In this document: in pieces, positions 53,130 to 59,886 of the stretch
Layout: each line of letters opens with the position of its first letter
How positions within the stretch are numbered: position 1 is the stretch's first letter
Program-made: the position numbers and the translations under genes
The notes under the pieces: model-generated
The model's input: the letters and a program-made list of their open reading frames with translations, nothing else
What the model was told of the DNA's origin: nothing
Databases searched by the model: none
DNA from: Billgrantia campisalis
GTDB taxonomy: Bacteria; Pseudomonadota; Gammaproteobacteria; Pseudomonadales; Halomonadaceae
Assembly (NCBI RefSeq): GCF_022341425.1
Contig: NZ_JABFUC010000014.1
Span: 62,001-126,000 of the forward strand
Length of the DNA stretch: 64,000 bases
Direction: 5' to 3'

Positions 53130-53295
53130 GACAAGCCGAAGGGGAGGTCCTGCGCCAGGGGTGAGAAGCACTGCTTCGAACGGGCTGGCCATGGATGGCC
53201 AGCACCGGTCCTGCAAGCGGAGCAGGACGCGAGAGCGAAGCAGGGCGCCGGTAGCGCCCAGGGATGGGTTTACAGCGCCTCCCCGCAGGCTTGTC
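53130..53295. repeat. Palindromic repeat, long copy, upstream of cobT
   Basis: The outer arms are GACAAGCC-gaa-GGGGAGG (53130-53147) and CCTCCCC-gca-GGCTTGTC (53278-53295). They pair perfectly except at the three central bases. Inside are further hairpins, including GTCCTGC/GCAGGAC. The right third (GTAGCGCCC to TGTCGACGG) is nearly identical to the copy inside the aminotransferase gene at 56396-56480. The middle is about 80 bases longer than there. It fills most of the gap before cobT and gives that gap no coding role. Confidence 0.85.
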
Positions 53296-53356
53296 GACGG
53301 TATAGTTCCGAGCGCCTATGATGGGCGCCGTTTTCGAGCCAACGCAGGATGCCCCC

Positions 53357-54414: not shown

Positions 54415-55392
54415 ATGGCCGAACCGCTCTCCCTGGCGCTGCTGGGCCTGGTGTCGGCGGCCATCCTGCTCGATCTGCTGATCGGCGACCCGCGGTGCTT
54501 GCCGCATCCTGTAGTGGGCATGGGCCGGCTGATCGCCGTGCTGGAGCGGGCCTGGAATCACGGCTCTCCCCGGGCGCGGCGACTCAAGGGCCTCCTGCTG
54601 ACGGCGCTGGTGGTGGCCGGGGTCTTCCTGCTCGCCTGGCTGGTGCTCAGGGGACTCGCCTGGATTCATCCTGCGCTGGCGCTTGTCGCCGAGCTGTGGC
54701 TGCTGGCCACCACTCTGGCCATCAAGGGGCTGCGCGATGCCGCCCTGGCGGTGGCCGTGCCGCTGGCGCGGGGCGATCTCACCGAGGCGCGCCTGGCCCT
54801 GGGACAGGTGGTGGGGCGCGATACCGCCACCCTCGACGAGGCCGAGATCACCCGCGGGGCGGTGGAGAGCGTGGCCGAGAACAGCGTGGACGGCATCACC
54901 GCGCCGCTGTTCTGGGCCCTGCTCGGCGGGGCGCCGTTGGCGCTGGCCTACAAGGCGGTCAACACCCTCGACTCCATGGTTGGCTATCGCAATGCGCGCT
55001 ATGCCGACTTCGGCTATGCCTCGGCCCGGCTCGATGACCTGGCCAACTGGCTGCCGGCCCGGCTCACCGCCCTGGCGATGTGGCTGGGTGCGCTGGCCCT
55101 GCCCGCCGCCCGCTGCCGGGGCGCCCTGGCCAGCGTGGTTCGCGAGGTGCCGCGCCATGCCAGCCCCAACAGCGGCTGGCCGGAGGCGATGATGGCGCGC
55201 CTGCTGGGCGTTCGGCTCGGGGGCACCAATCACTACGCCGGCGTTCCCTCCCACCGCGCCACCCTGGGGGAACCGCTCGAGGCCCTGGGGGTGACCCATA
55301 TTGATCGGGCGATTCGCCATATGCACGCCGGCTGGCTGCTTTTCCTGCTGATGATGGCCGGCCTGGTGCTGCTCGGGGAGCTGCTGCGATGA
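54415..55392 (+). CDS. cbiB: CbiB (CobD), adenosylcobinamide-phosphate synthase
   Basis: A 325-residue membrane protein with about five hydrophobic segments. It begins with LLIGDPRCLPHPVVGMGRLI, the family start, and has ENSVDGITAPLFWALLGGAP and YKAVNTLDSMVGYRN. It attaches aminopropanol phosphate to cobyric acid. It overlaps the downstream aminotransferase gene by ATGA and starts six bases after cobT. Confidence 0.95.
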   Translation: MAEPLSLALLGLVSAAILLDLLIGDPRCLPHPVVGMGRLIAVLERAWNHGSPRARRLKGLLLTALVVAGVFLLAWLVLRGLAWIHPALALVAELWLLATTLAIKGLRDAALAVAVPLARGDLTEARLALGQVVGRDTATLDEAEITRGAVESVAENSVDGITAPLFWALLGGAPLALAYKAVNTLDSMVGYRNARYADFGYASARLDDLANWLPARLTALAMWLGALALPAARCRGALASVVREVPRHASPNSGWPEAMMARLLGVRLGGTNHYAGVPSHRATLGEPLEALGVTHIDRAIRHMHAGWLLFLLMMAGLVLLGELLR

Positions 55393-56687
55393 GCAAGGCA
55401 TCTGCGGAACGAGACTCTGCGATGAACGAGACTGCGCCCTGGCCAGCCCACGGCGGCCAGGCCGACGCGCTGCTGGCGCGCTATGGGCTGCCCGCCGATC
55501 ACCCGCTGGTCGACTTCAGCGCCAATCTCAATCCGCTGGGGCCACCGGCCTGGGTGCCGGCTCGGCTCGCGGAGCTGGCCGCGGGCCTCGCCCGCTACCC
55601 GGCGCCGGACTACGCCGAGGCCCGGGCCGCCATCGCCCGCCGCGAGGGCGTCGGCGTCGACCAGGTGCTGCTCACCAACGGCGGGGCCGAGGCGATCTTC
55701 CTGGTGGCGGCGGCTAGCGCCGGCAGGCGCGCGGCGATCGTCCAGCCCACCTTCACCGAGTACGCCCGGGCCTGCCGCGCCTGCGGCCTGGCCGTCGACG
55801 CTATCTCCCTGGCGCCACCCGACTTCGCGCTCGACCCGGAGCGAGTGGCGGCGCAGCTGGGTGGCTGTGGGCTGCTGTTCCTGTGCCGACCCAACAACCC
55901 CACCGGCACCCTGGTGCCCCGCGAGGCCGTCGAGCGGCTGCTGGCGCTGACCGAACCGCTCGGCTGCCGAGTCGTGATCGACGAGGCCTTCATCGATTTC
56001 GTCGTGGAGGGCGACGAGCGCTTGACGCCGCTGCTGGGGCGTTTTCCCCATCTGCTGCTGCTGCGCTCGCTGACCAAGTGCTACACCCTGCCGGGCCTGC
56101 GGCTGGGCTATCTGTTGGCCGACTCGCAAACCGTGCGGCGGGTCGGGGCGCACCAGCCGCCCTGGAGCGTCAACCACCTGGCCGCCGAACTGGTGGCACC
56201 GCTGCTCGACGATGGCGAGTTCATGGCGCGCATGCGCACCTGGCTGCTGGAGGAGCGCCCCCGGCTTGCACTCGGTCTCGCCCGGCGGGGACTCCGGGTC
56301 GTGCCCAGCCGCGCCAACTTCTTTCTGGTGAGACCCGCTTTGGGGCCCGAAAGGCTGACAGGACAATCGCCTAGACACACAATGCCAGAGCCGAGGGCAG
56401 GTCGAAGAGGAGGTCATTTGCCAGGGATGGCAAATGTAGCGCCCATGGAGGGGTTCACAGCGCCTCCTCGAAGACCTGTCGACGGCTCAACTCGGGTGAC
56501 AGGGCCAGCGGCAATGGCTCTGGTGTCGACGGATGCGCTCTTCGAGCGGCTGCTGCGCTGCGGGATACTCGTCCGCCACACCCACAACTTCGCCGGGCTC
56601 GACGGCGGCTGGCTGCGCCTGGCGCTGCGCGACCGGGCCGACAACGACCGCCTGCTGGCGGCGCTGAGCAAAGAGGGCGAGGCATGA
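55389..56687 (+). CDS. cobC: L-threonine-O-3-phosphate decarboxylase-type aminotransferase, carrying an in-frame repeat insertion
   Basis: The product has 432 residues, longer than the usual 330-370. It is a PLP aminotransferase of the CobD/CobC type, making aminopropanol phosphate for the cobalamin loop. It has SANLNPLGPP, LCRPNNPTGTLVP and the PLP lysine Lys230 in LRSLTKCYTLPGLRLGYL. The C-terminal domain is split: RVVPSRANFFLVR (to about 315) is followed by about 65 residues before TDALFERLLRCGILVR. In relatives this link is only a few residues. The extra segment is encoded mostly by the palindromic repeat at 56396-56480 and its flanks, kept in frame. It overlaps cbiB and cobU by four bases each. 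Confidence 0.9.
   Translation: MSKASAERDSAMNETAPWPAHGGQADALLARYGLPADHPLVDFSANLNPLGPPAWVPARLAELAAGLARYPAPDYAEARAAIARREGVGVDQVLLTNGGAEAIFLVAAASAGRRAAIVQPTFTEYARACRACGLAVDAISLAPPDFALDPERVAAQLGGCGLLFLCRPNNPTGTLVPREAVERLLALTEPLGCRVVIDEAFIDFVVEGDERLTPLLGRFPHLLLLRSLTKCYTLPGLRLGYLLADSQTVRRVGAHQPPWSVNHLAAELVAPLLDDGEFMARMRTWLLEERPRLALGLARRGLRVVPSRANFFLVRPALGPERLTGQSPRHTMPEPRAGRRGGHLPGMANVAPMEGFTAPPRRPVDGSTRVTGPAAMALVSTDALFERLLRCGILVRHTHNFAGLDGGWLRLALRDRADNDRLLAALSKEGEA
56396..56480. repeat. Palindromic repeat, short copy, inside the aminotransferase gene
   Basis: The outer arms are GGCAGGTC-gaa-GAGGAGG (56396-56413) and CCTCCTC-gaa-GACCTGTC (56463-56480), paired except for three central bases and one G-U. 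An inner hairpin has CATTTGCCA and TGGCAAATG, a perfect 9-base stem with a GGGA loop. The frame is open through the element and reads GRRGGHLPGMANVAPMEG and FTAPPRRPVDG. It shares GTAGCGCCCA, ACAGCGCCTCC and TGTCGACGG with the copy upstream of cobT. Confidence 0.88.
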
Positions 56688-57431: not shown

Positions 57432-57881
57432 TCAATCTCTCCAGCGGCGCTTGAGCGCTTGCCACTTCACCGAGCAACAGGCTCGGAGCCAGATCCAACC
57501 TCCCCAGGCGAAGACTGCCGCGAAGCCACACACGGCCACGGCGTCCAGGAAGCCGAGCGAGGTTCGGCTGCTTGTCCAGGCAGCAATGCCAACCATCGTG
57601 CCAAGGCCATAGATTGAACTCAGCACCAGGCGTTCACGATCCTTGCGTTCACGCTCGACGGCGATAGCACGCTCCAGGGCGTAGTCGTAACCGCACTTCC
57701 CGCACTGAGCGGCATTCACAGCCACGCCGTGCCAGCCACAGGCCTTGCAGTTCTGGAGATAGGGGCTATCGACCGGCGGTACGTGCTCCTGAACCTGGTT
57801 GTAGAAGTCACGCCCCGCTACTTGATTGTCGCTTCCGCCGATCTCCTGGGCCACCTGGGGCTGCTGTTTATCCGATGTCAC
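57432..57881 (-). CDS. Prophage membrane protein with zinc ribbon and NQVAGRDF motif
   Basis: The product has 149 residues. The N-terminus has GGSDNQVAGRDFYNQ (about 15-29). A zinc-ribbon-like part follows, with CKACGWHG and QCGKCGYDY. Two hydrophobic segments (about 90-130) precede an Arg-rich C-terminus. It overlaps the repressor gene by four bases (ATGA), so the two are translated together. The NQVAGRDF motif also occurs in the repressor. It may modulate or anchor the repressor or act on the cell envelope; the function is unknown. Confidence 0.65.
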   Translation of the reverse strand: MTSDKQQPQVAQEIGGSDNQVAGRDFYNQVQEHVPPVDSPYLQNCKACGWHGVAVNAAQCGKCGYDYALERAIAVERERKDRERLVLSSIYGLGTMVGIAAWTSSRTSLGFLDAVAVCGFAAVFAWGGWIWLRACCSVKWQALKRRWRD

Positions 57882-58609
57882 CGCTTGCCCCCGCGACCGC
57901 CCTTATGATCTCCGTGGTTTTGGAAGTCGCGGCCTGCTACCTGGTTGCCACTGCCAAAAATACTCTGATGAGCGCTATGGGCAAGCCGTGACGATTGCCG
58001 TTCTTCTTCGCTCGTTGCTTCTTCCAGGCCGCGCTCTTCGGCACTCGCCTGGTTCTCTAGCCTCTGAGCCAGGCCTTCAAATTCGTCGACGACCGCCTTT
58101 GGCATCTCTGGATGCTGTCTCACGAAATGTCGCAGCTGCTGCGCCTCCGACTTCAAAGTTACTAGGTTCAATAGCTTAACAACGCCGCGGATAGCCTTAG
58201 CGCGAGAACCTTGGTCATCGATATGGGCAAACTGGTTGTAGATGTATATGGCCTGGCCAAGGAGTAGATCCCCCTCCAAGTGCCTGAGCTGGCAGTCTTC
58301 AGAGCGAAGAGCTGCCCACACCTCTCGGAATCGCCCCTCATTGATCTCAGGCGCGGAAGCGTCCTGGTGTGAATCTGGCGGTGTTCCCCCCTTCACGCCA
58401 GTCAGCAGCCATGTGACATCAACGTCATGCTGGTTGATCAGGGCGCAGAGTAGCTCCTTTGAGACGGCACGCTGCCCCCTCTCATAATTTTGGTAGGTCC
58501 TCAAGGACACGTTCAAAGAATCCGCAAAGGCCTGCTGCGACAGCTTCTCGCGCTCTCGTAGTTCCTTCAGGCGCGCACCAACCTCAAGATCCTCATTCGT
58601 GCTTGACAT
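57878..58609 (-). CDS. Prophage XRE-family repressor
   Basis: The product has 243 residues. A helix-turn-helix (about 10-65) has LKELREREKLSQQAFADSLN and SLRTYQNYERGQRAVS. A long helical region follows, then a Glu-rich stretch and GSGNQVAGRDFQNHGDH near the C-terminus. Read leftward from the operator region at 58610-58689, it should keep the prophage silent. There is no S24 protease domain, so induction may not follow RecA-type cleavage. The NQVAGRDF motif matches the next protein. Confidence 0.8.
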   Translation of the reverse strand: MSSTNEDLEVGARLKELREREKLSQQAFADSLNVSLRTYQNYERGQRAVSKELLCALINQHDVDVTWLLTGVKGGTPPDSHQDASAPEINEGRFREVWAALRSEDCQLRHLEGDLLLGQAIYIYNQFAHIDDQGSRAKAIRGVVKLLNLVTLKSEAQQLRHFVRQHPEMPKAVVDEFEGLAQRLENQASAEERGLEEATSEEERQSSRLAHSAHQSIFGSGNQVAGRDFQNHGDHKGGRGGKR

Positions 58610-58619
58610 GAGTACGTAT

Positions 58620-58655
58620 GTTCTCCATATTATGAACGAACGTGCTGCATAGTTC
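58620..58655. promoter_or_regulatory. Candidate prophage repressor operator
   Basis: Four GTTC/GAAC half-sites lie at 58620, 58634, 58638 and 58652, within 36 bases, between the divergent repressor and Ner-like genes. Both promoters probably lie in this AT-rich 80-base gap. The outer two sites are in opposite order to the inner two. Confidence 0.4.
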
Positions 58656-58689
58656 TTATTTGATACAACTAATTGTGAGGTATCCCAAG

Positions 58690-58923
58690 ATGAACGGCAA
58701 TGACGTGAAGCCCGGTCCGGAGCTGTATCAGCAGGTGCGCGGCGGGTTCATCGCCAGAGGCACCACCTTGGCGGCCTGGTGTCGTGAGCATGGCCACAAC
58801 CCTACCAATGCCAGGTCTGCCCTAGTGGGCGCTTGGAACGGTCCCAAGGGGCGTGCGCTGCGGCATCGGCTTGCTGAGGATTCCGGCGTCATTCGAGCCC
58901 CCCGGTCAGTGGCATTGGCATAG
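58690..58923 (+). CDS. Ner-like phage DNA-binding protein
   Basis: A 77-residue basic protein. LYQQVRGGFIARGTTLAAWC and NPTNARSALVGAWNGPKG form a helix-turn-helix-like arrangement of the type seen in small regulators of Mu-like Pseudomonas phages, where Ner turns down early transcription. It is the first gene to the right of the repressor, the place of ner in Mu. GAGG lies nine bases before the ATG at 58690. Confidence 0.65.
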   Translation: MNGNDVKPGPELYQQVRGGFIARGTTLAAWCREHGHNPTNARSALVGAWNGPKGRALRHRLAEDSGVIRAPRSVALA

Positions 58924-59005
58924 CTAAACGTTAAACGGTCCCCAGGCGGGGTAGTAGGGGCACCAGCCGCCTTTGTTTGGACGGCACGGTTGAGGGGATA
59001 GGGCA

Positions 59006-59497
59006 ATGACCAGGCGTAGTTGGAAGTACCGGCAACCCGGCTCGCTGCGGCAGGCGATGGAGTGGAACCTGGAGTATGCGCGGGTGAAACACCAGCGTTC
59101 CGTGGATCGCGTCGCCGACCTTATGGGCTTGTCCAGCAAGTGGTCGCTGTACAAATGGATGGAGTCGGGGCGCATGCCGGCAATTTTGATCCGGCCTTTC
59201 GAGCAGGCCTGCGGGATCGACTTCATTACGCGCTATATCGGCCACTCAAGCCACAAGCTGCTGATCGATATCCCGACCGGCAAGCGTGGCAACGGCGCTG
59301 ACATCAACGCGCTGCAATTAAGTTTCACCGAGGCAGTGGGCCTGCTGCTGCGCTACTACGACGGCCAAGCTGAGGCTGAGGACACCCTGGGCGCGCTGTA
59401 TACCACCATGGAGCAGCTGGCCTGGCACCAGGGGACGATCGAGCGGCACCGCCAGCCGGGGTTCGAATTTGGCGCTGATATGGGAGGTGACGAGTGA
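59006..59497 (+). CDS. Phage early protein with a possible helix-turn-helix
   Basis: The product has 163 residues. RSVDRVADLMGLSSKWSLYK (about 32-51) looks like a DNA-binding helix pair. The centre has IRPFEQACGIDFITRYIGHS and the end is acidic. It is read with the following small gene (overlap one base). Similar genes occur in Mu-like phage early regions of Pseudomonas, with no known role. Confidence 0.55.
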   Translation: MTRRSWKYRQPGSLRQAMEWNLEYARVKHQRSVDRVADLMGLSSKWSLYKWMESGRMPAILIRPFEQACGIDFITRYIGHSSHKLLIDIPTGKRGNGADINALQLSFTEAVGLLLRYYDGQAEAEDTLGALYTTMEQLAWHQGTIERHRQPGFEFGADMGGDE

Positions 59498-59886
59498 TGC
59501 TGAACACGCCAGAACTGAAAAGGCGGCGTAACCGGGTGCTGGGCGCCATCGACAAACTTTCGGTCGTTGATGCGTTGGCGGTGATGGGCGAGGCCATACG
59601 AGAGCTGGCGATGCAGGAGTCGGTAGGCCAGTCCGCAGCGGCCAATGATGCTGAACCTTCCAGCGCTGATTTAATCCTCGGGGGCGAGTTCAGTCGCTTC
59701 AAGATCGATCACGATCCCGAGGTGAGGGACTTCATCTATGGGTTGCGCGGCATGCGCTCGGTCCCCCAGATCGCGGCGCTGGCCAAGGAGAAGTTCGGAG
59801 ACAGGGCCCCAAGCAAGATGGCGCTGTACCGCTACTTCAACAGCCTAAAGTATCGCCGGGGCACAAGGGAGCAACAGCATGACTGA
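59497..59886 (+). CDS. Phage early protein of unknown function
   Basis: The product has 129 residues starting MLNTPELKRRRNRVLGAIDK. The C-terminal part (RSVPQIAALAKEKFGDRAPS and KMALYRYFNSLKYRRG) looks like a helix-turn-helix. The start ATG overlaps the previous stop as TGATG. A GGGAGG site is nine bases upstream. No family recognised. Confidence 0.6.
   Translation: MLNTPELKRRRNRVLGAIDKLSVVDALAVMGEAIRELAMQESVGQSAAANDAEPSSADLILGGEFSRFKIDHDPEVRDFIYGLRGMRSVPQIAALAKEKFGDRAPSKMALYRYFNSLKYRRGTREQQHD

Follow-up and report, generated by a model that had tools for sequence, protein, structure and literature searches.

A dispersed palindromic repeat with putative twin CsrA-type loops lies in frame within cobD of Billgrantia campisalis

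Results

The cobD gene and its product

The window, as the whole 64,000-nucleotide stretch of Billgrantia campisalis DNA analysed here is called, contains a cobalamin (B12) cluster in which cobT and cbiB both score above their cut-offs and the gene for a cobinamide kinase, whose frame is open, is recognised yet scores under its cut-off (128 vs 161 bits). In the same cluster, the open reading frame 55389..56687 (+ strand) encodes a 432-residue protein that passes the curated cut-off of TIGR01140 (threonine-phosphate decarboxylase CobD) with 307 bits against 290.55, and the gene is referred to here as cobD (L-threonine-O-3-phosphate decarboxylase). After the cluster, at 57432-59886, lie small ORFs that resemble phage-type regulators (an XRE-like repressor and others) as judged from their translations.

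The cobD reading frame is uninterrupted across the inserted element described below. The codon for the active-site residue Lys230 lies at 56076-56078 (+); an alignment of 25 CobD proteins shows no variation at S227, T229 and K230, and the C-terminal part of the protein retains its own invariant residues. An earlier, sequence-only reading of this DNA had described the frame as open and both Lys230 and the C-terminal domain as intact, which these results bear out. It had also counted about 65 residues at a place where relatives need only a few. Alignment with Salmonella CobD (1lc5) pairs query residue 315 with 303 and query residue 384 with 311, so that 68 residues in the window protein stand against 7 in the Salmonella enzyme. 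Relative to most aligned relatives, the extra coding segment spans 56337..56527 (+), about residues 317-379.

An AlphaFold2 model of the 432-residue protein had a mean pLDDT of 83.8, with values of at least 90 at 304 of the 432 residues. Residues 321-377, which the model places after a strand that ends at 316 and before a helix that begins at 381, fell below 50, and the inserted residues are thus predicted to form a disordered loop on a confident core, in agreement with the proposal that the insertion lies where the fold seems to tolerate a loop. dN was lower than dS on both sides of the insert (for example 0.224/0.694 and 0.173/0.365 against the relative L012), with a dN/dS of about 0.2-0.5 for the C-terminal domain; cobD is under purifying selection on both flanks of the insert. 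We infer that CobD is active and tolerant of the loop.

Extent and parts of the inserted element

The extra segment consists of an element at 56381..56498 (+, sense relative to cobD; covariance-model match of 117.7 bits) together with about 45 nt of 5' flank and about 30 nt of 3' flank. Since the element occupies about 118 bp of a segment of about 190 bp, it supplies about 40 of the roughly 60 extra residues, the rest being flanking sequence. The suggestion that the segment is mostly one copy of a palindrome therefore stands, although the element is longer than the 56396-56480 originally assigned to it.

An inverted-repeat search and folding placed the left arm of the outer stem at 56388..56413 (+) and the right arm at 56463..56488 (+). 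These 26-nt arms are 77% complementary, and the perfect 9-base hairpin reported along with an arm pair was recovered as an inverted repeat at 56415-56423/56428-56436. This repeat lies within hairpin H1 (56415..56436, +), which contains CAGGGATG at 56422-56429; the adjoining hairpin H2 (56439..56462, +) contains CATGGAGG at 56444-56451. Both sequences match the motif CANGGANG, the H2 motif lying 22 nt past that of H1. The element has the terminal inverted repeats characteristic of MITEs. An imperfect 17-nt direct repeat (76%; 56353-56369 and 56494-56510) flanks it and could be a decayed target duplication or a product of chance.

The window holds a second copy, a variant with a longer H1 region, at 53213..53313 (+; covariance model, 35.1 bits). 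It ends a few bases 5' of the listed start of the cobT ORF (53318) in the same B12 cluster.

Dispersal and genomic placement of the repeat

BLAST searches with the cobD insertion matched at least 40 places in the B. campisalis genome. Sites of a 28-nt core pattern, with as many as 3 mismatches allowed, numbered 67, compared with 0 for the reversed control, and a BLAST search with the consensus gave 78 places, or 72 once split halves were joined. The element is a repeat of about 118 nt, dispersed in about 70 copies over the B. campisalis genome, far beyond the chance sites of the reversed control. It was found in 84 of 90 genomes of the genus. In a sample of the order, 23 of 293 genomes contained a match; near-full-length matches were confined to the family of B. 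campisalis, and elsewhere only part of the inner core was covered. One Halomonas megaplasmid record contained 9 places, and a search of phages gave none. A RAYT-type (Y1) transposase, PF01797, was matched 0 times in the B. campisalis genome by a search that was positive in 5 of 14 control genomes; the cognate tyrosine transposase expected of a REP/RAYT system is thus absent from the matches in this genome, and RAYT was rejected as the mobiliser of the repeat. One copy in this genome (L009:1492-1609) sits between two TPP riboswitches (L009:536-700 and L009:1664-1773).

Neighbouring genes and their orientation were called by a crude heuristic based on ORFs and codon position, and by these calls a same-strand gene precedes 52 of the 69 copies located elsewhere than in cobD, recB and gph (p 3e-5), 38 of the 52 lying 60 nt or less from the end of that gene. 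Among the same 69 copies, both neighbours were co-directional with the element in 38 and opposed to it in 12 (p 3e-4), while 14 copies lay between convergent genes and 5 between divergent genes. Copies prefer sites downstream of genes, in sense orientation.

Structure of the element and its two loops

The computed fold of the element is a long outer stem capped by two adjacent hairpins. Covariation was assessed in 49 of the 56 near-full-length copies from the B. campisalis genome, a set that comes from one genome, is non-independent and is itself the source of the structure: over 36 pairs, 98.7% of cells were paired, and 25 of the 36 pairs showed double (compensatory) changes, a number reached in none of 500 shuffles. 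When the structure was slid along the alignment as a control, 33-51% of cells were paired. The seven omitted copies retain 230 of 252 pairs (91%), and six of them retain both motifs. One U-G and one G-U pair are each preserved in 48 of the 49 copies, which fits RNA better than DNA. The consensus has a predicted folding energy of -72.4 kcal/mol (z -7.7) and the window copy one of -60.5 kcal/mol (z -5.2).

The stems vary with compensation and the loop letters are constant. Each hairpin ends in a C[ANGGAN]G loop, and the closing C-G pair is present in 49 of 49 copies at both loops. Among the 66 copies with a recognisable H2 flank, CANGGANG, which we take to be the classical RsmE hexaloop, was matched by H2 in 64 and by H1 in 54; 11 of the 12 H1 exceptions have one common alternative sequence there. 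The letters C A. G G A. G of H2 were found in 66, 64, 66, 66, 65 and 65 of the 66 copies, respectively. The most variable loop position, position 7 (T23 A15 G25 C3), coincides with the N of CANGGANG; position 3, with G in 60 of the 66 copies, is hardly free. The element also has a conserved core, GTAGCGCCC...TTCACAGCGCC, a GTAG preceding H2 and a GAA/GNA internal loop.

The loops have the form expected of a CsrA/RsmA target, CANGGANG within a hairpin whose loop a C-G pair closes, and the genome contains a single csrA gene. The same motif has been published as an Rsm-binding motif (available text of PMC6849547). From these features the RNA of the element would be expected to bind a CsrA/RsmA dimer via its two loops. 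The description of the insertion as an extragenic-type palindrome accordingly holds as far as a dispersed palindromic repeat is concerned, but it is best understood as a structured RNA that carries twin loops of the CsrA/RsmA type.

Relatives outside the genus and the TwoAYGGAY family

Twenty stretches from other genera, 16 of them from outside the family, were fetched from among the order-sample matches. Two CANGGANG motifs 22-24 nt apart were present in 18 of the 20, the first motif being shortened in L275 and L280; this is partly expected, since the stretches were found by similarity to the loop-bearing core. In the stretches from outside the family, the sequence of the outer stems is different and the architecture is constant. 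A covariance model built only from B. campisalis copies (R1) detected all 16 out-of-family stretches, 15 at E values of about 2e-9 or better and L273 at 0.0016. In a sample of the class, R1 matched in 17 of 143 genomes, B. campisalis included.

The architecture of TwoAYGGAY RNA (RF01731, clan CL00106), two adjacent terminal hairpins on a long stem, is present in the element, with loops that are ANGGAN and not strictly AYGGAY. R1 matched in five of eight RF01731 loci (L287 at 6.4e-8, L288 at 2.5e-6, L286 at 9.9e-6, L293 and L289 at about 0.015, the L289 match being at a neighbouring RF01731 place) and gave no match in L290-L292. Conversely, RF01731, whose gathering score is 43 bits, scored 27.6-35.1 bits in five of the 16 out-of-family stretches, under that cut-off. 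It gave no match up to E 10 to the window stretch and five Halomonas loci, and none at E 0.001 in the B. campisalis genome; an Rfam scan of the window stretch returned two weak matches only, far under their cut-offs. Because the RF01731 cut-off is missed while R1 cross-matches, the halomonad repeat is best described as TwoAYGGAY-like and not as a member by the Rfam threshold. RF01731 itself was found above its cut-off in 13 of 145 genomes of the order, in several of them in multiple copies. In five of the genomes (G222, G173, G150, G192 and G220), TwoAYGGAY matches often form inverted pairs about 170-420 bases apart from start to start, as though flanking a small unit.

In-frame copies in recB and gph

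Besides cobD, the B. campisalis genome has in-frame copies in recB (TIGR00609) and gph (NF009695, antisense frame), so that cobD is not special. Frames spanning copies in this genome were chosen by length and scanned in sets of 9, 10 and 10 with Pfam and 10 with NCBIfam; most had no domain match and were discounted as frames that are probably antisense or due to chance. Copies at epmB (L043), L064 and L060 were rejected as in-gene copies because the element precedes the recognised domain. The copy at L043:1580-1697 in B. campisalis is in frame at or just before the epmB N-terminus, and its translation hinges on the start codon. A genus-wide peptide search yielded mostly short open frames among 30 loci; of five long frames scanned with Pfam, two had the element only upstream of the domain and three had no domain, and all five were discarded.

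Of 30 recB loci fetched, 23 were run against R1. Nine carry the element at one RecB loop, eight in sense orientation (L205, L207, L208, L210, L213, L219, L220 and L221) and one in antisense (L223); L220 has two copies. The recB of L206 (G065) reads NAGAPGAAPS at the element loop and resembles a deletion scar. Among 30 aligned gph loci, the element is antisense in three (L235, L236 and L237, B. campisalis included) and sense in L242 at the same loop, opposite orientations that reflect either separate insertions or inversion in place. The search for copies across halomonad genomes and within other genes, proposed in the sequence-only reading, was thus positive.

The peptide encoded by sense recB copies drifts (PGM, PGK, TWM, AGM, PGT, TGM, PRK), while CANGGANG is retained except in one loop of one copy. 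In 10 sense coding copies, changes were found at 1 of 120 loop letters compared with 239 of 980 letters elsewhere, a difference that is partly older than the insertions, since the family conserves its loops already before it enters a gene. In recB, three pairs presumed to be orthologous had 0 of 30 loop letters changed compared with 43 of 287 elsewhere (p 0.02), the loop positions being those of the motif in a single member per pair; by the same definition, three antisense gph pairs had 0 of 36 changed compared with 21 of 282 (p 0.15). These counts are suggestive of RNA-level selection on the loops of coding copies. Antisense coding copies also keep their loops (0 of 48 letters changed), although the message would not carry them, and recency or a constraint at the level of DNA can explain such retention; with conservation also preceding insertion, RNA-level selection is unproven.

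History of the cobD insertion

Out of about 70 relatives with a strong CobD match, 29 (L012-L040) were aligned. At the insertion site 25 have a short loop only, lacking the extra residues; L012, L013 and L014 have insertions, each smaller than that of the window, and L015 has a slight extension. The frame is continuous through the site in all 29, with no disruption of the gene. Arm-like remnants lie in frame at the site, of the left arm in L012 and of the right arm in L013, L014, L070 and L071, the last two being Halomonas sp. PR-M31 and an uncultured Halomonas. The inserts of L013 and L014 have the same sequences as the inserts in Billgrantia gudaonensis (L068) and Halomonas faecis (L067). 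Among the carriers seen, only B. campisalis has kept the whole element.

When 2000 shuffles of each insert were compared with the window copy, none scored as well for L013, L014, L070 and L071, and 4 did for L012 and 630 for L015. Against the consensus, the numbers were 0 for L012 and L071, 2 for L070, 1194 for L013, 1263 for L014 and 1350 for L015, which lies within the clade and has extra residues but no significant remnant. L013 and L014 score 31 against the window copy and 15 against the consensus. A match to the window copy and not to the consensus argues for common descent of one insertion, and it also makes the identification of these two inserts as repeat remnants dependent on the window copy. 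The remnant carriers, L015 and the window sequence form one 7-row group with moderate support (81/68). One insertion in the common ancestor of B. campisalis and up to six relatives is most likely on these alignments, and it seems to be old and mostly trimmed in frame in the relatives, which would have shed most of the element through in-frame deletions. Insertion at one site can also be repeated, as both orientations at one loop in gph and recB indicate.

Discussion

The reading we favour, with a probability of roughly 0.7, is that most of the extra segment of CobD derives from a halomonad-wide element of about 118 nt with putative twin CsrA sites, which was inserted in frame in cobD, probably in an ancestor. 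A copy would have entered cobD in the common ancestor and then have been mostly lost from the relatives by in-frame deletions. In its usual place, the RNA of the element may act as a module at the 3' end of mRNAs or as a distributed CsrA sponge that binds a CsrA/RsmA dimer; inside cobD it would be a twin CsrA site within the coding message.

Dispersal in about 70 copies would also suit a selfish MITE- or REP-type repeat. Its loops would be conserved because a transposase or another DNA-binding protein reads them in folded single-stranded DNA, and the cobD copy would be a neutral accident with no link to CsrA. The loops kept by antisense coding copies and the GTAG before H2 speak for such a repeat, since GTAG-tagged REPs are known in genes including recB (available text of PMC3733652). 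Against it stand the U-G and G-U pairs preserved in 48 of 49 copies, the sense bias downstream of genes, the coincidence of the most variable loop position with the N of CANGGANG, and the absence of matches to PF01797, the one transposase family searched, in a genome scanned alongside 14 controls, five of them positive; on balance we regard it as rather unlikely. That the extra residues reflect variation native to a permissive loop, or several insertions of unrelated origin, is improbable. The recB and gph loops, which in different species took the element in one orientation or the other, show that a loop can be hit repeatedly, and L015 has extra residues without a remnant while L013 and L014 do not match the consensus; yet the window copy is an unmistakable full element at 117.7 bits, which contradicts this explanation for that copy, L013 and L014 are nearer to the window copy than to the consensus as common descent predicts, and the carriers group together.

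Decay of cobD, with the insertion as a step toward a pseudogene, could be argued from the size of the insertion and from the survival of the whole element in the window species alone among carriers seen. It is very improbable given a frame open on both sides, constrained C-terminal codons (dN/dS about 0.2-0.5), the invariant C-terminal residues kept, cobT and cbiB above their cut-offs beside an open, recognised cobinamide kinase gene, and relatives that preserved the frame through changes of size.

The ancestral in-frame insertion of a twin-site element can be extended, tentatively and at rather long odds, to a repeat that serves halomonads as a CsrA sponge, with tens of structured twin-site RNAs carried at the 3' ends of messages and an occasional copy within a gene, where the RNA sites are selected and the peptide drifts. 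If this were true, CsrA would govern B12 synthesis by way of a translated module in cobD, and this repeat family would supply the Csr-antagonist RNA that is missing in Halomonas. The cobD insertion may possibly be a floppy protein loop and an RNA switch at once, one DNA stretch selected as RNA and merely tolerated as protein. The earlier idea that a repeat has become protein is right in that the element is coded in frame; nothing indicates that the peptide itself is selected. A twin CsrA-site RNA is the likely molecular identity of the palindrome in this gene, and a series of size reductions can be followed across species in a named enzyme.

For Halomonas, a table in the available text of PMC7366521 lists GacS/GacA of Halomonas anticariensis with CsrA in brackets and the RNA partner as unknown, and the repeat family is a concrete candidate for that partner. 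CsrA targets of Halomonas hydrothermalis have been modelled in 5' leaders and in the initial 100 bases of coding sequence (PMC12889724), a source whose available text makes no mention of palindromes. In Pseudomonas putida, a palindromic region near ISPpu8 is among the Rsm-bound RNAs (PMC7937890); a long palindromic region that co-purifies with Rsm proteins is, by description only, like the halomonad element, and differs in that the available text does not describe it as a dispersed element of the halomonad type.

The closest structural parallel is TwoAYGGAY RNA, which appears as a table row in the available text of PMC2864571 and for which CsrA binding has been proposed as a prediction (PMC4333381, in the portion available). 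Both have a long stem, two adjacent hairpins and ANGGAN-type loops, and the tandem GA described in the TwoAYGGAY stem (PMC4333381) resembles the GAA/GNA internal loop of the halomonad element. The halomonad element differs in its shorter outer stem, its GTAGCGCCC...TTCACAGCGCC core, loops that are often not AYGGAY and copies in coding genes.

As for palindromes in genes, the sequence-only reading had likened the insertion to the Rickettsia palindromic elements, and the genome copies, alignments and predicted loop support such in-frame entry of a dispersed palindrome. The Rickettsia elements, of 105-146 bp, lie in frame in conserved protein genes, and the element-bearing enzyme Gmk has been shown to be active (PMC2229807); they share with the halomonad element a palindromic repeat in frame in protein genes and are set apart, by description, by occurring in other bacteria and by the lack of any mention of a CsrA-type loop in the available text of that source. 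ERIC and NEMIS miniature elements, according to the same text (PMC2229807), are of similar size, are transcribed as hairpins and form some in-frame fusions; the likeness is by description only, and the organisms are unrelated. REPs of the GTAG/CGTC type occur mostly downstream of genes and also in ORFs, many of them DNA repair genes; in two Xanthomonas, recB is hit at nearly the same place (PMC3733652, available text). These are units of 20-40 bp tied to RAYT transposases (PMC3733652), of which (PF01797) the B. campisalis genome gave no match, and the main text of that source mentions neither Halomonas nor CsrA.

In the open-access literature searched, no description was recognised of this repeat or of a dispersed CsrA-site repeat entering genes. 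In-frame palindromes in genes are already known, as are twin GGA-loop RNAs (TwoAYGGAY); what appears to be new, in the literature searched, is a dispersed halomonad repeat with putative CsrA sites that enters genes in frame and leaves shortened remnants.
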